Source: Thermus caldilimi (lineage in GTDB: Bacteria; Deinococcota; Deinococci; Deinococcales; Thermaceae). From it: a stretch of 64,000 nt of DNA. Location of the stretch: positions 978,796 to 1,042,795 of the forward strand of contig NZ_CP038452.1 of NCBI RefSeq assembly GCF_004684245.1, given 5' to 3'. The translations under genes and the position numbers were made by a program. Below, piece after piece: positions 19,637 to 31,965 of this stretch. The first letter of the stretch is position 1. Each line of letters starts with the position of its first letter. The notes beneath the pieces were generated by a model. The model saw nothing but the letters and a program-made list of their open reading frames with translations. It was not told the origin of the DNA and did not search any database.

Positions 19637-22833
<3,197 letters not shown>

Positions 22834-22837
<4 letters not shown>

Positions 22838-23880: not shown

Positions 23881-25257
23881 ATGCGCAAGGAGCTAAGGCG
23901 CTGGGCCGAGATCCTGCGGGAAAGAGCCCTGGCGGAAGGGCTTTCCTTTCCCCCGGTGCTCTTTGAGGAGGTGGGCCCGGAGGAGATGGCCATGCTGGCC
24001 GCCTACGGGGGCTTTCCCCGGCGCTATTCCCACTGGCGCTTCGGTAGTGAGTACCTGCGCTACCGGGAAACCTACCGCTATGGCCTCGGGCGCATCTACG
24101 AGCTGGTGGCCAACACCTACCCCGTGCACGCTTACCTCCTTAAGGGCAACACCCTTCTCGCCCAGAAGCTGGTCATGGCCCACGTCTACGCCCACGCCGA
24201 CTTCTTTCACAACAACCTGGCCTTCAAACCCATCCCCAAGGACATGGAAGCGGAGATGGCCCACCATGCGGCCTTCGTGGAAAAGGCCATGGAGCGGCAT
24301 GGGGCGAGAAGCGTGGAGGAGTTTCTGGACCTGGCCCTTTCCCTGGAAAACCTCATCGATCCCCACGCCCTCTACATCCAAAGGCAGGCGGGGGAGGATA
24401 AGGAGGAAAGACCCCCTGACCGCCTCCAGGTGCGCCCCTACCTGGATCCCTACGTGAACCCTCCTCCAGCGCCTCCCAAGGAAGCCGAGGAGGGGGCAAG
24501 CCCCATCCCCCTCCCCCCCAGGCCCACCCGGGACATCCTGGGCTTTCTGGCCCGGCACGCCCCCTTGGCCCCCTGGCAGAAGGGCATTCTGGAGATCATC
24601 CGGGAGGAGAGCCTGTACTACGTTCCCCAAGCCGCCACCAAGATCCTCAACGAGGGCTGGGCCACCTACTGGCACACCCGCCTCCTCCTCCCCCTTCTCT
24701 CCCCGGAAGAAGCCCTGGAGTTCGCCGAGCTCCAGGCAGGGCTTCTCGCCCCACACGGCTTTAACCCTTACCGCCTGGGCTACCTGCTCCTCAAGGAGGT
24801 GGAGGAACGCTGGGATAAGGGGCGGTTCGGCCCGGAGTACGAGGCTCTGCCCCTAGGGGAGCGGCTCACCTACGAGAGGCCCACCGGCCTAGGGCTCAAG
24901 CAGCTTTTCCAGGTGCGCACCGTCCACACGGACCTGAGCTTCCTGGATAGTTTCCTGACCCCCGAGTTCGCCCTCAGGCAAAGGCTCCTCAACCCCGAGG
25001 ACCTTCCCCGCTTCGCCGAGGCCAAGAAGGCCCTCCTCTTCCGCCTCACCAACGGGGGCTACCCCATCGTGGAGCTGGTGGACGCCAACTATGGGAACCG
25101 AGGAGAGCTTCTTCTGGAACACGCCTACGAGGGCGTGGAGCTGGACCTGAAAAAGACCCAGGCGGTGCTGGAGAACCTCTACCGCCTGTGGGGCCGGCCG
25201 GTGCACCTGAAGACGGTGGTGGGGGAGAAGGAAACCCTGCTTTCCGCGGGAAGCTAG
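23881..25257 (+). CDS. spoVR: SpoVR family protein
   Basis: A 458-residue SpoVR-like protein: FGSEYLRYRETYRYGLGRIY, HVYAHADFFHNNLAF, LDPYVNPP and KILNEGWATYWHTRLL with conserved His residues. The biochemical function is not firmly known, although the family is linked to spore cortex and stress phenotypes. It is the last gene of prkA-yeaH-spoVR. Its end overlaps the convergent TlpA-like gene by 4 nt. Confidence 0.93.
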   Translation: MRKELRRWAEILRERALAEGLSFPPVLFEEVGPEEMAMLAAYGGFPRRYSHWRFGSEYLRYRETYRYGLGRIYELVANTYPVHAYLLKGNTLLAQKLVMAHVYAHADFFHNNLAFKPIPKDMEAEMAHHAAFVEKAMERHGARSVEEFLDLALSLENLIDPHALYIQRQAGEDKEERPPDRLQVRPYLDPYVNPPPAPPKEAEEGASPIPLPPRPTRDILGFLARHAPLAPWQKGILEIIREESLYYVPQAATKILNEGWATYWHTRLLLPLLSPEEALEFAELQAGLLAPHGFNPYRLGYLLLKEVEERWDKGRFGPEYEALPLGERLTYERPTGLGLKQLFQVRTVHTDLSFLDSFLTPEFALRQRLLNPEDLPRFAEAKKALLFRLTNGGYPIVELVDANYGNRGELLLEHAYEGVELDLKKTQAVLENLYRLWGRPVHLKTVVGEKETLLSAGS

Positions 25258-26045
25258 CGCAAAACCCTCAGATAACCAAGAAGAAGGGCCTCGGAAAGCT
25301 CCCCCAGGTGCCGGGCCACCAGGCGCCCCTGCCGGTCAAAGAAGAAGGTGGTGGGAAGGCCCTGGGTCTTCAGAACCTGGGAAAGCTGGGTTTCCGGATC
25401 CAGGAGAACCCACTCAGGGGCGAGCCCCTCTTCCTCCAGAAAGTTCCGAACCACCACCGGCCCCTCCCCCTGGCTGGCGAAGACGAAGCGCACCTCGGGG
25501 TTTTCCTGGCTCAGGCGCACCATCATGGGTAGCTCCCGCCGGCAAGGAGGGCACCAGGTGGCCCAAAGGTTCAGGACTAGGGGCTTGCCCCGGAAGTCCT
25601 GCAGGTTCACCCGGGTACCCCCCAGGGCGGTGAGGGTGAGGGAGGGCAGGCGCACCTCCTCCCCTCCCCGCTTCTGCACCAGGAAGACCCCAAAGACCAA
25701 GCCCGCCGCCAAAGCGGCCAACAGGGCATACCGCCAGAGGTTCTTGGGCAATACCATCAGCGTGTACCCTCCCGCAGCCAGGATACCCCAAAGGGGGTCA
25801 AACCCCCCTTGCCACACATAGAGGATGGAAAGGGGATCCCGGGCATAAATGGACGCATTCTCCAGAACGAAACCGACTCGGGCCCCAAGAAAACCCACAA
25901 AGATAGCGTTGTAGGCCCACAGAGGAAGCCTTCGGTCCACCCTTCGGGCCAGGACCTCAGCCACCGCCACCATGGCCAAAAGGGCCAGGAACACCTGGAA
26001 CCTGGCCCAGGGAATGGCGAAGGGCCCTACCTGCACCGCATCCAT
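25254..26045 (-). CDS. TlpA-like thioredoxin with an Lgt-like membrane domain
   Basis: A 263-residue protein. Residues 1-125 are hydrophobic with about four spans and resemble part of prolipoprotein diacylglyceryl transferase (LGARVGFVLENASIYARDPL, ILYVWQGGFDPLWGILAAGG). Residues 130-263 form a TlpA/ResA thioredoxin domain with WATWCPPCRREL and a cis-Pro in GLPTTFFF. The thioredoxin domain should lie outside the membrane and reduce disulfides or handle persulfides. It is the last gene of a leftward redox operon with a rhodanese lipoprotein and a disulfide oxidoreductase. The Lgt-like part lacks clear catalytic residues and may only be an anchor. Confidence 0.85.
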   Translation of the reverse strand: MDAVQVGPFAIPWARFQVFLALLAMVAVAEVLARRVDRRLPLWAYNAIFVGFLGARVGFVLENASIYARDPLSILYVWQGGFDPLWGILAAGGYTLMVLPKNLWRYALLAALAAGLVFGVFLVQKRGGEEVRLPSLTLTALGGTRVNLQDFRGKPLVLNLWATWCPPCRRELPMMVRLSQENPEVRFVFASQGEGPVVVRNFLEEEGLAPEWVLLDPETQLSQVLKTQGLPTTFFFDRQGRLVARHLGELSEALLLGYLRVLR

Positions 26046-26419
26046 CAGCGAACCAGGGGGAAGCCCTCCCTCTGGATGGCCAGGATCCCGCCCTCGAGGT
26101 TGTAGAGGTTGGTGTACCCCTTCCGCTTCAGGTACTCCGCCGCCTGGCGGCTGCGGTTGCCGCTACGGCAGTAGAGGTAAACCGGCTTGTCCTTGGGAAG
26201 GGTATCCGCCCACTGGGCGACGGCCTCCACCGGGAGGTTGATGGCCCCGGGCACGTGCCCCTGGGCGAACTCCTCTGGGGTACGCACGTCCACCACCACC
26301 GCCCCCTGGTCCACCGCCTGGTAAAGCTCCTGGGGACCGACGTTTTGGTAGCTGCCCTTGGGCCCGCAGGCCGCCAGGGCCAAAAGGGCGAAAAACCCGA
26401 GGAGGGCCCGCCGGGTCAT
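26045..26419 (-). CDS. Rhodanese-domain lipoprotein
   Basis: A 124-residue protein with a lipoprotein signal peptide (LALAAC lipobox) and one rhodanese domain: VVVDVRTPEEFAQGHVPGAI and active-site CRSGNRS. It should move sulfane sulfur outside the cytoplasmic membrane. It sits 1 nt after the disulfide oxidoreductase gene and overlaps the TlpA-like start by one base. Confidence 0.9.
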   Translation of the reverse strand: MTRRALLGFFALLALAACGPKGSYQNVGPQELYQAVDQGAVVVDVRTPEEFAQGHVPGAINLPVEAVAQWADTLPKDKPVYLYCRSGNRSRQAAEYLKRKGYTNLYNLEGGILAIQREGFPLVR

Positions 26420-26420
26420 G

Positions 26421-27110
26421 TTAGGCGCTCACCCCCACCGCCTTGCGGATGGCCTGGAGGAACTGGGAAAGGGGCTGGGCCCCGAGAATCCTCTCCTTGC
26501 CGTGGTTCACGATGGTGTCCGGCACCCCGTGGATGTGGTAGCGGCTGGAAAGCTCGGGAAACTCGTTGGCCTCGATCATCTCGCCCCACACCTTGGGGGA
26601 AGCGTAGGCCATGCGGTGGGCGGTGCGCACCGCCTGCGGGCAGTAGGGGCAGGTGGGGGTGACAAAGACCTGGAGGACCACCTCCTGGGGAAGGTTGTTA
26701 AGCTCTTGGACTACGTTTTCCGGAAGCCCGTGCCCGTCCCGCCCCAACATCTCGATGTCCTCGAGGAGGCTCGCGAACTCGTACCCCGCCGGGATACCCC
26801 GGTAGCGCAGGTTGATGGCCTCAGAGCCCTTCTCCCGCAGGATCAGGGTGGGAGGGTCCTCCACCCTGTACTCCTTGGCCTTCTCCTTGCCCTCGGGGGT
26901 AGCCAGGTCGTAGACCACCAGGTGAAGCCTATCCGAAAGGGCGGCCAGCTCCTCCAAAAGCTGCTTGGTTTCCTTGCAGTACAGGCAAGGCTCCTTACCT
27001 GGGGCGATTAGCGTAGAGGTGTCGGTGAAAAGCACCAGCTCCACATCCCGCACCAGGTTGGAAAGCCGCTCGCGTACGATCTCCTGCTCCTTAGGTCCCA
27101 GTAGCGCCAT
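26421..27110 (-). CDS. Protein disulfide oxidoreductase with two thioredoxin folds
   Basis: About 229 residues forming two thioredoxin/glutaredoxin-like units with redox motifs CLYC and CPYC (FVTPTCPYCPQAVRTAHRMA). This is the PDO architecture of thermophiles, used in cytoplasmic disulfide formation and as a partner of thioredoxin reductase. I chose the ATG at 27110 (MALLGPKEQEI) because GGGAGG precedes it; an upstream in-frame ATG at 27143 lies within the operator region. It is first in a leftward redox operon, divergent from the persulfide dioxygenase. Confidence 0.88.
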   Translation of the reverse strand: MALLGPKEQEIVRERLSNLVRDVELVLFTDTSTLIAPGKEPCLYCKETKQLLEELAALSDRLHLVVYDLATPEGKEKAKEYRVEDPPTLILREKGSEAINLRYRGIPAGYEFASLLEDIEMLGRDGHGLPENVVQELNNLPQEVVLQVFVTPTCPYCPQAVRTAHRMAYASPKVWGEMIEANEFPELSSRYHIHGVPDTIVNHGKERILGAQPLSQFLQAIRKAVGVSA

Positions 27111-27124
27111 CGTTTCCTCCCAGA

Positions 27125-27140
27125 TACCCCCGTAGGGGTA
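27125..27140. promoter_or_regulatory. CsoR/CstR-type operator 1
   Basis: TACCCCCGTAGGGGTA has perfect 6-bp arms (TACCCC/GGGGTA). It lies between the start codon of the disulfide oxidoreductase gene and a possible -10 (TATATT on the minus strand). The CsoR family, including the persulfide sensor CstR, binds sites of this type. Confidence 0.55.
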
Positions 27141-27204
27141 CATCCTTTATTGAATATAGCAGATGTTTCCCGTAAAAGATAGACCTCCGTGAACGCTGTC
27201 CCCG

Positions 27205-27233
27205 TTGACACCTAGTACCCCCATAGGGTATTT
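27205..27233 (+). promoter_or_regulatory. Promoter of the persulfide operon with operator 2 in its spacer
   Basis: TTGACA (27205-27210) is followed 17 bp later by GTATTT (27228-27233; TATTTT at 18 bp is the alternative). The spacer holds a second palindrome, TACCCCCATAGGGTA (27216-27230), very like operator 1. A repressor bound there would block RNA polymerase. Confidence 0.6.
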
Positions 27234-27274
27234 TGGCGGTGTGGGGACAATGGTCCCATACCGGAGGTAAAGCC

Positions 27275-28711
27275 ATGGTTTTCAGGCAAATCTACGAGGA
27301 AGGCTTGGCCCAAATGAGCTACCTCCTGGGGTGCGCCGCCACCGGAGAGGCCCTGGTGGTGGACCCCAAGCGGGACGTGGACACCTACCTGGAGCTAGCG
27401 GAAAGCCTGGGCCTGCGCATCACCGCCATCGCCGAAACCCACATCCACGCCGACTACCTCTCGGGGGCCCGGGAGCTGGCCAAGGCCACCGGAGCCACCC
27501 TGTACCTCTCGGACGAAGGGGACGAGAACTGGAAGTACAAGGGGCTGGAGGGCTTCTCCCATGTCCTCCTCAGGGATGGGGATGAGTTCAGGGTGGGGAA
27601 TATCCGGGTGAAGGCCGTGCACACCCCGGGCCACACCCCGGAGCACCTTTCCTTCCTGGTGGCGGATGGGGCGGTGACGGACGAACCCCTCCTCTTTCTC
27701 ACGGGCGACTTCGTCTTCGTGGGGGACATCGGCCGACCGGACCTTCTGGAGGAGGCCGCGGGCATTAAGGGGACCGCTCTACCCGGGGCCCGGCGCATGT
27801 TCCAAAGCCTCAAGACAAAGTTCCTCACCCTTCCCGACCACGTGCAGGTCTGGCCAGGCCACGGGGCAGGTTCCGCCTGCGGCAAGGCCCTGGGGGCCCT
27901 TCCCGCCACCACCGTGGGCTACGAGAAGCGGCACGCCTGGTGGGCGGAGTACCTGGAAAGGAACGATGAAGAAGGCTTCGTAAAGGCGCTTCTTGCCGGA
28001 CAGCCGGAAGCCCCCACCTACTTCAAGGAGATGAAGCGGCTCAACCGGGATGGCATGCCCATCCTGGGAGGCATCCCCCACCCGGGCCGCCTCACCAAGC
28101 CCCAGTTTGACCGGTACCTGCGGGAGGGGGCCATCCTGGTGGACACCCGGGACAAGTTCGCCTTCGCCGGGGGGCACATCCGGGGAGCCATCAACATCCC
28201 CGCGGGCAGGAACTTCTCCACCTGGGCCGGGTGGCTTCTTCCCTACGACCGGCCCCTCGTCCTCCTGGCCCACCCTTCCGAGGTGGAGGCCCTGACCCGG
28301 GCCCTGATTCGCATTGGCCTGGACGAGGTGGTGGGGTATATCCCAAGCCTCCAGGGGTATGCGGATGGAGAGCTGGAAACCGTACCCCAGATCACGGCCC
28401 GGGAGGCCAAGGCCCTCTGGGAGCGGGGCGAGGCGGTGATCCTGGACGTGCGGGGCCGGGACGAGCACCTGGCCGGGCACATCCCAGGGGCTTTGAACCT
28501 CCACGCCGGGCGTGTGCTGGCCCACCTGGACCGGCTACCCAAGAACAAGCCCCTCATCGTCCACTGCGTGGGCGGGGACCGCTCCAGCACCGCCATCAGC
28601 GCCCTCTTGTCCCATGGCTTCAGGAACGCCCTGAACCTCACCGGGGGGATTAGGGCCTGGCAGGAAGCCGGCTTCCCGGTGGAAAAGGGTGAGGAGCTGG
28701 TAAACGCCTGA
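27275..28711 (+). CDS. CstB-like persulfide dioxygenase-rhodanese fusion
   Basis: A 478-residue three-domain protein. Residues 1-245 form an ETHE1-type metallo-beta-lactamase-fold persulfide dioxygenase (THIHADYLSG with His56, His58, Asp60; HTPGHTPEH; His196). Residues 270-365 form a rhodanese-like domain in which the active-site Cys is replaced (VLLAHPSE). Residues 375-475 form an active rhodanese with Cys431 (HCVGGDRS). This order of PDO, inactive rhodanese and active rhodanese matches CstB, which turns low-molecular-weight persulfide to thiosulfate. The ATG at 27275 follows CGGAGG. It heads a rightward sulfur operon under a CstR-type operator. Confidence 0.92.
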   Translation: MVFRQIYEEGLAQMSYLLGCAATGEALVVDPKRDVDTYLELAESLGLRITAIAETHIHADYLSGARELAKATGATLYLSDEGDENWKYKGLEGFSHVLLRDGDEFRVGNIRVKAVHTPGHTPEHLSFLVADGAVTDEPLLFLTGDFVFVGDIGRPDLLEEAAGIKGTALPGARRMFQSLKTKFLTLPDHVQVWPGHGAGSACGKALGALPATTVGYEKRHAWWAEYLERNDEEGFVKALLAGQPEAPTYFKEMKRLNRDGMPILGGIPHPGRLTKPQFDRYLREGAILVDTRDKFAFAGGHIRGAINIPAGRNFSTWAGWLLPYDRPLVLLAHPSEVEALTRALIRIGLDEVVGYIPSLQGYADGELETVPQITAREAKALWERGEAVILDVRGRDEHLAGHIPGALNLHAGRVLAHLDRLPKNKPLIVHCVGGDRSSTAISALLSHGFRNALNLTGGIRAWQEAGFPVEKGEELVNA

Positions 28712-28720
28712 GCGTAGGGC

Positions 28721-28749
28721 AGGGGGACTGGGGTTCTGCCCCAGTTCCC
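28721..28749 (+). repeat. Intergenic hairpin in the sulfur operon
   Basis: GGGGGACTGGGG and CCCCAGTTCCCC form a 12-bp stem (one G-U pair) with a 5-nt loop. No T tract follows. It could attenuate or stabilise RNA between the dioxygenase and tandem rhodanese genes. Confidence 0.5.
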
Positions 28750-28771
28750 CAAACACCCCAAGGAGGTAAAC

Positions 28772-29431
28772 ATGTACGAAGCCGAGGTCAAGGACCTGAA
28801 CCCAGAGGAAGCCAAAAAGCTCTACGACCAGGGCGTGGCATTCATCGATGTGCGGGAGGTGGAGGAGTACGCCCAGGCCCGGATTCCTGGGGCAGGCCTA
28901 GTGCCCCTTTCCGAGTTTATGGCCCGCTACGGGGAGATCCCCAAGGACCGGCCTGTGGTCCTCTACTGCCGCACGGGAAACCGCTCCTGGCAGGCGGCCG
29001 CCTGGCTTTCCGCCCAGGGCTACGGGAACATCTACAACCTCGAGGGGGGCATCGTCCGCTGGTACAGGGCGGGACTCCCCGTGGACACCAGCCCGGTGGA
29101 GGTGGGCTACACCGCCACCCCGTACCAGGAGGTGGGCCCCCACGAGGCGGAAAAGCTTCTAAGCGAAGCCTTGGTGGTGGACGTGCGGGAACCCTGGGAG
29201 TACGCGGATGGGCACGTGCCCGGGGCGGTGAACATCCCCCTTTCCTCCCTGCCGCAACGGCTTAAGGACCTGCCCAAGGACCGGCCCATCCTCCTGGTCT
29301 GCAACTCCGGCAACCGCTCGGGGGTGGCGGCGGACTTCCTGGTGGGCCAGGGCTTCCCCGGGGAACGGGTGTACAACCTCGAGGGGGGCACCTACGCCTG
29401 GATGGGGGCGGGCCTTCCGGTGGAACGATGA
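28772..29431 (+). CDS. Tandem rhodanese (sulfurtransferase)
   Basis: A 219-residue cytoplasmic protein of two rhodanese domains, both with an active-site Cys: CRTGNRS in the first and CNSGNRS in the second. Each has the usual FIDVRE/VVDVRE start and YNLEGG end. It should transfer sulfane sulfur to or from the persulfide dioxygenase product. The ATG follows AAGGAGG and the stop overlaps the exporter start (ATGA). Confidence 0.92.
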   Translation: MYEAEVKDLNPEEAKKLYDQGVAFIDVREVEEYAQARIPGAGLVPLSEFMARYGEIPKDRPVVLYCRTGNRSWQAAAWLSAQGYGNIYNLEGGIVRWYRAGLPVDTSPVEVGYTATPYQEVGPHEAEKLLSEALVVDVREPWEYADGHVPGAVNIPLSSLPQRLKDLPKDRPILLVCNSGNRSGVAADFLVGQGFPGERVYNLEGGTYAWMGAGLPVER

Positions 29432-30189
29432 GCCTTGCCCTTTTAGGCGCGCTTCTCATAGGGCTCTCCCTGGGGCTTCTGGGCTCGGGAGGGTCCATCC
29501 TCACCGTACCCGTGCTGGTCTACCTCCTGGGAGAGCCTCCTAAGCAGGCCATCGCCGAAAGCCTCCTCATCGTGGGGGGAATCGCCCTTTTGGGGGCCGT
29601 GCCCTATGCCCTAAGGGGCCTGGTGGACTGGCGCAATGTGCTCTTCTTCGGCCTTCCGGGCATGGCGGGCACCTACCTGGGGGCTTGGCTTTCCCGCTTC
29701 GTTTCCGGGGAGGTGCAGCTTCTCACCTTTGCCCTGGTGATGCTTCTTGCCGCCTACTTCATGGCCCGGCCAAGCCCCCTGAGGGCCCAGGGCCATGGGG
29801 GCCGCAAGCCCGGGAAGATCCTCCTGGACGGGCTGGCGGTGGGGGCCCTCACCGGCTTCGTAGGGGTGGGGGGAGGCTTTCTCATCGTGCCCGCCCTGGT
29901 CCTCTTGGGAGGGCTTCCCATGCACCTAGCCATCGGAACCAGCCTCCTCATCATTGCCCTCAAGTCCTTTGCTGGGTTTTACAAGTACCTCCACCTTTTA
30001 CCCGAGCTGGGACTGGCCGTGAACTATGAGGTGGCCCTCCTCTTCGTGGGGGTGGGGACCCTGGGAAGCTTCCTGGGCGGCCGGCTGGCGGTGCGGCTAC
30101 CCCAGGGAGGCCTGAGGCGGGGGTTTGCCCTTTTCCTGGTGGTGATGGGGATTTTTATCGTGGGCCAGAACCTGGTCCAAGGGCATTAG
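29428..30189 (+). CDS. TauE/SafE family anion (sulfite) exporter
   Basis: A 253-residue membrane protein with about eight spans and the two inverted family repeats (LGLLGSGGSILTVPVLVYLL and TGFVGVGGGFLIVPALVLLG). The family exports sulfite, sulfoacetate and related organosulfur anions. Its place after the dioxygenase and rhodaneses suggests export of sulfite or thiosulfate made during persulfide clearance; this is inference. Confidence 0.9.
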   Translation: MSLALLGALLIGLSLGLLGSGGSILTVPVLVYLLGEPPKQAIAESLLIVGGIALLGAVPYALRGLVDWRNVLFFGLPGMAGTYLGAWLSRFVSGEVQLLTFALVMLLAAYFMARPSPLRAQGHGGRKPGKILLDGLAVGALTGFVGVGGGFLIVPALVLLGGLPMHLAIGTSLLIIALKSFAGFYKYLHLLPELGLAVNYEVALLFVGVGTLGSFLGGRLAVRLPQGGLRRGFALFLVVMGIFIVGQNLVQGH

Positions 30190-30198
30190 ACTGAAGGG

Positions 30199-31047
30199 GT
30201 GCGCTTCCGCACCCTCTTGGCCATCCAGGCGGAGGTCAAGCCGGATTTCTACCGCACGCAAGAAGCCTTCCGCGAGCGGATCTTCTCCCTCTTAAGCCCC
30301 CTCGAGGGCACCCCCTCCCCCCGGCTTGCCGCCTTCCCCGAGCTCTTCGGGCTCCCCCTTCTCCTGCATCTGGAAAGGGATTTCCACCCCCAGGAGCTCC
30401 TCACCTCTCCCCTCTCCCCCTGGAAACGGGCGCGGAAGGCCTACGGGGTCGTTCACCGGACCATGGCCGAGGCCGCTAGGGCCTTCGGCACCTATCTCTT
30501 GGCGGGCACCCTGCTCTCCCCGCCCTATGAGGAGGAGCTGGCCCGGGGGCGGTTTGCCCGCACGCCCCTTTTCCAGAACCTCGCCCTTTTCCTCAACCCC
30601 GAAGGCCGCCTGTTGGCCCAGGTGCCCAAGATGGAACTCACGCCCCCGGAGCGCTGGCTCAAGCGGGGCACCTTCGGCCCCCACCTGGTGGAAACCCAGG
30701 CGGGCAGGGTGGGCATCCTCATCTGCCTGGACGGCTTTTTTGAGCGGTATCTGGCCCGGTTGGACGCCCTGGGGGCGGAAGTCCTCCTGCAACCCTCTGC
30801 CAACCCCGCCCCTTGGGACCGCCCCTGGCCCTGGGAGGGATCCCGAAGGGAAGGAGAGGTCTGGAGGGCTTCCGCCCAGGAGAGGCTCGTGGGCCGGGAA
30901 AACCTCCGATTCCTTTTAAACCCCATGCTGAACGGCAAGATTCTCGGCCTCACCTTTGAGGGGCAAAGCGGCATCTACGCCCCCGGGGAGGCCCTGGCCT
31001 TGGCCCCTGCCCCAAGGGGGGATGCCGCCCTCCTCCTAACCCTATAG
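30199..31047 (+). CDS. Carbon-nitrogen hydrolase (nitrilase superfamily)
   Basis: A 282-residue hydrolase with the Glu-Lys-Cys triad of the nitrilase fold: AAFPELFG (Glu), AQVPKMELTPPE (Lys) and GILICLDGFFE (Cys). It probably cuts an amide or carbamoyl bond; the substrate is not evident. It starts at a GTG 10 nt after the exporter stop and could be the last gene of that operon, though a functional link is not obvious. Its end overlaps the convergent PpiC gene by 6 nt. Confidence 0.82.
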   Translation: MRFRTLLAIQAEVKPDFYRTQEAFRERIFSLLSPLEGTPSPRLAAFPELFGLPLLLHLERDFHPQELLTSPLSPWKRARKAYGVVHRTMAEAARAFGTYLLAGTLLSPPYEEELARGRFARTPLFQNLALFLNPEGRLLAQVPKMELTPPERWLKRGTFGPHLVETQAGRVGILICLDGFFERYLARLDALGAEVLLQPSANPAPWDRPWPWEGSRREGEVWRASAQERLVGRENLRFLLNPMLNGKILGLTFEGQSGIYAPGEALALAPAPRGDAALLLTL

Positions 31048-31965
31048 GCGCTCGGGGAAAAGGGCGATGGGATAGGAACGGATCAGGGCCTTGGCGAGCT
31101 TTTCCCAAGCCTTGTCCTTCACCCCTTGGGCCAGCTCCTCCGCCACCTCCTCCAGGGGGTAGCGGCCCGGGGGTACCAGCCTTTCCAGGAGGATCACGTG
31201 GAAGCCAAACTCCGTCCCCACGGGAGGGGAAACCTCCCCGGGCTTCAGGGCCAGCAGGGCCTTTTCAAAGGCGGGGATGTAGGTGCCTTCCGGCTCGCAG
31301 CCCAGATCCCCCCCGGCTTCCTTGGAGCCAGGGTCCTGGGACACCTCCTTGGCCACCTGGGCGAAGGCCTCCCCCTTGGCCAGGCGGGCCAGGACCTCTT
31401 TGGCCGCCTCGAGGGTGGGCACCAGGATGTGCCGGGCGCAGTAGAGGGCGGGGTGGCGGTACTCCGGGGAAAGGAGCCATAGGGCCTTCAAGGCCGCGGG
31501 AGAAACGCTAAGCTTGGCGCGGTAGTGAGCCTCCAGGGCCTCGAGGGCCATGGCCTCGGAAAGCAGGGTGCGGTAGGTGGCGAGGTCGGGCACCCCTGCC
31601 CCCTCCAGGGCCTTCCGCAGGGCCTCTTCCTCCGGGAAGGCCTTCACGAGCTCCGCCACCCGGGCCTCCACGCTGTCGGGCAGGGGCCAGAACCCCTGGC
31701 GCCGGGCCAGGAGGAGAAGGGCGCGCTCCTCCGCCAGGGCCTCCAGGTAAGGGGCCCGGTACTGGGCGAGAAGATCGCGGGTTTCCTCCGAGTCGGGGAG
31801 GCCAAGCTGCCGGAGTGCGCTTTTGACGAAGAGGCCAAAGCGGAGCTCAAACTGGCTCTTGGTGATGTGTTCGGGCCCCACCTGGGCCACCACGGGATCT
31901 TCCTGGGCCCGGGCAAAGGGGGATAAGCTTAGGCTTAAGGTTAGGAGGAAAAAAAGGAAGCGCAT
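31042..31965 (-). CDS. Secreted PpiC-type peptidyl-prolyl isomerase (SurA/PrsA-like)
   Basis: A 307-residue protein with a signal peptide (MRFLFFLLTLSLSLSPFARA), an N-terminal helical SurA-like region (ITKSQFELRFGLFVKSALRQ) and a parvulin domain (CARHILVPTLEAAKEVLARL, GGDLGCEPEGTYIPAFEKAL, TEFGFHVILLERL). It should act as an extracytoplasmic folding factor. I chose the ATG at 31965 at the signal peptide; the longer frame runs through the hemE start. A -10 like TAGCAT lies 5 nt before the ATG, so it may be leaderless. It is divergent from hemE with 13 bp between. Confidence 0.9.
   Translation of the reverse strand: MRFLFFLLTLSLSLSPFARAQEDPVVAQVGPEHITKSQFELRFGLFVKSALRQLGLPDSEETRDLLAQYRAPYLEALAEERALLLLARRQGFWPLPDSVEARVAELVKAFPEEEALRKALEGAGVPDLATYRTLLSEAMALEALEAHYRAKLSVSPAALKALWLLSPEYRHPALYCARHILVPTLEAAKEVLARLAKGEAFAQVAKEVSQDPGSKEAGGDLGCEPEGTYIPAFEKALLALKPGEVSPPVGTEFGFHVILLERLVPPGRYPLEEVAEELAQGVKDKAWEKLAKALIRSYPIALFPERL

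Follow-up and report, generated by a model that had tools for sequence, protein, structure and literature searches.

Conserved twin palindromes between divergent persulfide and thiol-redox operons of Thermus caldilimi are probable operators of a two-cysteine, CstR-like repressor

In Thermus caldilimi, a CstB-like gene and a thiol-redox operon diverge from a 164-bp intergenic region that carries two GC-rich palindromes, raising the question of which regulator might act on both operons. An earlier note on this DNA had proposed that a CsoR/CstR homologue encoded elsewhere in the genome senses persulfide and controls them. We analysed the 64,000-nucleotide stretch that holds the locus (contig NZ_CP038452.1, positions 978,796 to 1,042,795), referred to here as the window, together with the full genome and related genomes. 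The genes of the two operons, in window coordinates, are:

25254..26045, minus strand: ResA/TlpA-like thiol-disulfide oxidoreductase with an LGT-like N-terminus, 263 aa (domain matches)
26045..26419, minus strand: single-domain rhodanese with a lipoprotein-like N-terminus, 124 aa (domain match)
26421..27110, minus strand: protein disulfide oxidoreductase (PDO), 229 aa (TIGR02187, 250.5 bits against a cut-off of 185)
27275..28711, plus strand: CstB-like persulfide dioxygenase-sulfurtransferase, 478 aa (MBL, pseudo-rhodanese and rhodanese domains)
28772..29431, plus strand: tandem rhodanese, 219 aa (PF00581, two domains)
29428..30189, plus strand: TauE/SafE-type exporter, 253 aa (PF01925, E=4.3e-49)

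The CstB-like protein combines an MBL dioxygenase domain with a cysteine-less rhodanese domain and one of the active type, and cysteines are present in GHGAGSxCG and in the last rhodanese domain, as CstB requires. It matched 3R2U, which we take to be S. aureus CstB, with E=2.5e-106 and both functional cysteines aligned. Both the CstB-like gene and the divergent thiol-redox operon announced by the earlier note are thus borne out by the domain content of their products. Elsewhere in the window (19637-22837), a PrkA-like kinase ORF is apparently interrupted by an intein and is followed by genes for a VWA protein and a SpoVR-like protein.

The control region between the operons contains the following elements:

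27125..27140, no strand: candidate operator 1 (site 1), TACCCCCGTAGGGGTA, TAC-N10-GTA, in the leader of the leftward PDO operon
27153..27161, minus strand: extended -10 of the leftward PDO promoter, TGCTATATT
27205..27234, plus strand: promoter of the CstB-like operon, TTGACA, 18 bp, TATTTT, 10/12 matches, kept in 27 genomes
27216..27230, no strand: candidate operator 2 (site 2), TACCCCCATAGGGTA, TAC-N9-GTA, in the -35/-10 interval of the CstB-like operon
27244..27257, no strand: motif B, a third conserved palindrome, GGGACAATGGTCCC, GGGAC-N4-GTCCC, at about +3 to +16 of the CstB-like mRNA (inferred start)

Both palindromes were found where the earlier note had placed them. Site 1, assigned there to the leader of the thiol-redox operon, indeed lies between the minus-strand extended -10 (27161-27153) and the PDO start codon (27110), at about +6 to +21 relative to the inferred start site of the PDO operon. 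The promoter of the CstB-like operon (TTGACA at 27205-27210, TATTTT at 27229-27234) was the sole sigma-70-like promoter returned by a promoter scan of 24900-31400. Site 2 had been described as lying exactly in its spacer; it does occupy the 18-bp spacer, but runs on into the first two bases of the -10 element. As read from its bases, site 2 is of the classical CsoR-family type-2 operator form, TAC-N9-GTA.

We then estimated how readily such sites arise by chance. At least one TACCC-N4..6-GGGTA match occurred in 0.9% of 20,000 dinucleotide shuffles of the intergenic region and two matches in none of the 20,000, and sites 1 and 2 are the only such matches in the 64-kb window. Across the 2.45-Mb genome, this motif is not enriched (11 sites, compared with 10 for the reversed control); neither was a looser genome search with 1 mismatch (101 matches, 149 for the reversed control), and a loose single-site pattern with 2 mismatches was uninformative in the window (42 matches, 43 expected). 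Since the bare motif shows no genome-wide enrichment, the weight of the argument rests on conservation. Each of the 27 Thermus genomes has the start of the CstB-like gene and carries both sites at corresponding promoter positions (one copy being damaged), while the DNA between the sites drifts. Mean column identity was 0.96 for site 1 and 0.91 for site 2, compared with 0.63 for the other intergenic columns. The ends of site 1 are intact in 25 of the 27 genomes, and 13 of its 16 columns are at least 95% conserved; the exceptions are a copy with three bases missing, in a 65%-complete assembly, and one that ends in GGGGCTA. Site 2 is present in 27/27 and occupies the matching position in relatives within the Thermaceae, as well as in a Truepera metagenome-assembled genome (MAG). 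Base changes within the sites fall in the middle, leaving the TACCC/GGGTA ends unchanged. In the segment around the PDO extended -10 (27153-27163), 7 of 11 columns are at least 95% conserved. Retention of the palindromes upstream of orthologous operons, a comparison suggested by the earlier note, was therefore found in every one of the 27 Thermus genomes.

It is hardly probable that site 1 instead acts in the PDO leader as an RNA element or terminator, leaving site 2 as the only regulator site. Site 1 has the wider N10 spacing, and a scan listed it as a terminator-like hairpin on the plus strand. This is the strand opposite PDO transcription, however, with few T residues, and terminator-like sites in general were as common as in shuffled sequence (8 found, 7.2 expected); on these grounds the terminator reading was rejected. 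Furthermore, Meiothermus (L237) has a palindrome of the operator type in the corresponding position near PDO.

The genome encodes exactly two CsoR-family proteins, and neither gene is at the locus, in keeping with the claim that the regulator is encoded elsewhere. One (L002) is a C-H-H copper CsoR whose gene adjoins a CopZ-like gene. The other, P0003 (G000:1878258-1878536), adjoins a dnaX-like gene, unlinked to the CstB/PDO locus, and has the CsoR/DUF156 fold (PF02583, 84.8 bits against a cut-off of 22.8). Inspection for two sensing cysteines, as had been advised, identified C39 and C68 in P0003, with Phe four residues before C68, where CsoR has a ligand His. Orthologues of P0003 are 91-100% identical within Thermus; in those aligned, both cysteines are kept and the copper-ligand histidine is absent. 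P0003 is presumed from its sequence to be the orthologue of TTHA1953 of T. thermophilus HB8, because C39 and C68 match and the only other family member in HB8 is CsoR.

Could the copper sensor itself, the orthologue of TTHA1719, bind the two sites, with copper stress inducing thiol and sulfur genes? A C-H-H CsoR is available in this genome, and Streptomyces CsoR likewise uses operators of the TACCCC..GGGGTA type; the CsoR sites of S. lividans, TACCCCCTAGGGGTA among them, are nearly identical to site 1. Nevertheless, we consider this quite improbable. The site upstream of copZ-csoR in this genome is CCCACCCCACCAGGGGTGGGG, unlike sites 1 and 2 and of the same form as the published operator of T. 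thermophilus CsoR (TtCsoR), and sites 1 and 2 do not fit the CCCCACCCCACCTGGGGTGGGG type of the copper-CsoR regulon. Moreover, the genes downstream of sites 1 and 2 are persulfide genes, and G005 (99% complete; L052, L087) has a TTHA1953 orthologue and no copper CsoR, and yet keeps both sites. G005 offers a natural test of which CsoR-family protein an operator belongs to.

Relatives of Thermus carry a sister class of two-cysteine regulators at the corresponding loci. In Calidithermus and Meiothermus the sister gene follows the PDO-rhodanese pair (L108, L237); elsewhere it lies after a PDO gene that diverges from CstB (L107) or next to CstB (L103). The CstB -35 element of these genera is flanked by TACCCC..GGGGTA or TATCCCC..GGGGGTA sites. 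The sister class is present in all 22 non-Thermus family genomes outside the genus g5 and in the Truepera MAG, and absent from the Thermus and g5 genomes. The TTHA1953-type and sister classes form one clade (support 1.0), apart from CsoR. Because Thermus and g5 lack the sister class, TTHA1953 remains as the candidate there; and because this class is encoded in cis in relatives and missing from Thermus, Thermus seems, from this distribution, to have lost the cis-encoded regulator but kept its operators. SoxY was not found in G009 and G017 (both 100% complete) or in G016 (87%), all three of which keep the TTHA1953 orthologue and both sites, so that the regulator is accompanied more constantly by the CstB/PDO control region than by sox.

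TTHA1953 represses sox promoters, binding DNA when reduced and releasing it when disulfide-linked; a divergent cytochrome promoter type on the sox side was shut off by it in vitro (PMC10318464). Barrows and Van Dyke 2023 placed it nearest to CstR (PMC10318464). Its published targets are sox, two cytochromes, soxC and TTHA1729/1730, CstB/PDO not being among them (PMC10318464). The published consensus has no C-tract, although the authors noted that such tracts were maybe under-represented in their selection, and the only C-tract genomic site tested, HB8 TTHA0653/4, for which the probe was a site of 20-21 nt, was not protected (PMC10318464). Against the 20-bp consensus TACNNTACNNNNGTANNGTA, site 2 of the window scores 8/12 and site 1 lower, while site 2 reaches 11/12 in G015 and 10/12 in G005, G018 and G025. 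With up to 2 mismatches allowed, the consensus did not find the CstB/PDO locus in its own genome. TACCC-N4-GGGTA is present in the sox-side divergent cytochrome promoter of most Thermus. Taken together, TTHA1953 is a better candidate than CsoR for sites 1 and 2, on account of G005, the differing CsoR operator, the cis-encoded sister regulators and the consensus fits of site 2.

Motif B is a further conserved feature of the CstB promoter. Its arms GGGAC/GTCCC or close variants occur in 27/27 Thermus genomes, and it is found at the same place in the sister genus g5 (GGGACAGAAGTCCC) and in Truepera (GGGACGAATGTCCC). In G009 (L059, G009:C26), the CstB match covers the first ~48 residues only and is followed directly by a rhodanese-domain match; going by these matches, CstB has apparently been deleted there while both operators and motif B stay. 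GGGACAAATGTCCC also occurs in this genome in the leader of a sulfite-oxidase-family gene (L212 250-1599, minus strand), the promoter of which (around G000:2310217-2310281) shares the CstB layout: TTGACA, then GGGTAGGGTACC in the spacer, a GTA/TAC operator-like sequence, then GGGACAAATGTCCC in the leader. The related GGGACAAA and GGTACAAATGTCC are conserved in the sox divergent region. A literature search for motif B found no published use and no matching regulator. As RNA, its stem folds, with z = -0.8 for the window copy and -2.5 for the Truepera copy. Motif B may be a second operator or a 5' mRNA hairpin, and it may point to a second factor acting at the CstB promoter. We propose only tentatively that it binds a second sulfur regulator, as yet undescribed, which together with TTHA1953 would gather the promoters of CstB, of sulfite/sulfane dehydrogenase and of sox in a single regulon across Thermus and its relatives. 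Elsewhere in the genome, a site TACCCCCAAAGGGTA (L201, G000:808251-808265) lies near genes that carry an arsenite-oxidase-like Rieske_3/molybdopterin fragment and is a possible further target or a chance occurrence.

The imperfect fit of the sites to the TTHA1953 consensus, and the hint from motif B of another factor at the CstB promoter, could also mean that one or both TACCCC palindromes belong to an unrelated regulator that responds to sulfur, their likeness to CsoR operators being convergent. We regard this as unlikely, given that the same operator type adjoins cis-encoded CsoR-family genes in related genera and that a TAC/GTA dyad with a G-tract is a hallmark of the CsoR family (PMC3902906).

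Sites 1 and 2 thus probably serve as operators for a CstR-like repressor, a two-cysteine member of the CsoR family, and P0003, the TTHA1953 orthologue, is the most likely one. The outline given in the earlier note is supported and can be specified as a CstR-like repressor of the TTHA1953 type. We infer direct binding of P0003 to both sites and a persulfide trigger. Reduced P0003 would repress the CstB operon from site 2, between -35 and -10, and the PDO operon from site 1, just downstream of its start site. Once its cysteines are joined, whether by persulfide or polysulfide, the CstR mode, or by a different thiol oxidant, the repressor would leave the DNA. Sulfane sulfur would then be oxidised and moved by CstB and the rhodaneses, the product of this step would be exported by TauE, and PDO and the TlpA-like protein would restore thiols. 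Against the P0003 reading stand the 8/12 consensus fit, the N10 spacing of site 1, the absence of the locus from the published targets and the lack of effect of NaHS, which left the DNA binding of TTHA1953 unweakened (PMC10318464).

If true, this reading extends the role of TTHA1953 from sulfur oxidation to persulfide clean-up and suggests persulfide as its missing signal. Because the sites are kept in three SoxY-less Thermus and a sister regulator lies in the cluster in relatives, we predict that TTHA1953, published as the 'Sox regulator' of Thermus, is in essence a CstR-type regulator of persulfide defence. The reading also gives a testable account of how an unlinked paralogue that controls energy metabolism as well could have taken the place of a cis-encoded CstR.

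In a literature search for the exact operators, the only published use found was in S. lividans CsoR sites with ATACCCCCTAGGGG. The type-2 operators of S. lividans CsoR share with site 2 the TAC-N9-GTA dyad around a G-tract, but that protein is a copper sensor governing copper efflux (PMC3902906). The CstR-cst systems of Staphylococcus aureus and Enterococcus faecalis likewise pair a two-cysteine CsoR-family repressor and palindromic operators with CstB, rhodanese and TauE targets. The operator trait of CstR, a TAC/GTA dyad with a G-tract at cst-type promoters, is found here with N9 at site 2 and N10 at site 1. Linkage of regulator and target, common though not essential in CstR, is absent in Thermus, where the regulator gene lies next to dnaX, and is seen for the sister class in Meiothermus and Calidithermus. 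Thermus further differs in that a divergent PDO/TlpA thiol operon uses the same control region, no sqr is seen in the operon and the persulfide response is inferred. The TTHA1953 regulon of HB8 has the same two cysteine positions, sulfur-oxidation genes and divergent promoters, whereas the CstB/PDO sites carry C/G-tracts that its published consensus lacks (PMC10318464). The comparisons give good support to the CstB/PDO locus as a new candidate target for a regulator of known kind, and not as a novel type of system.
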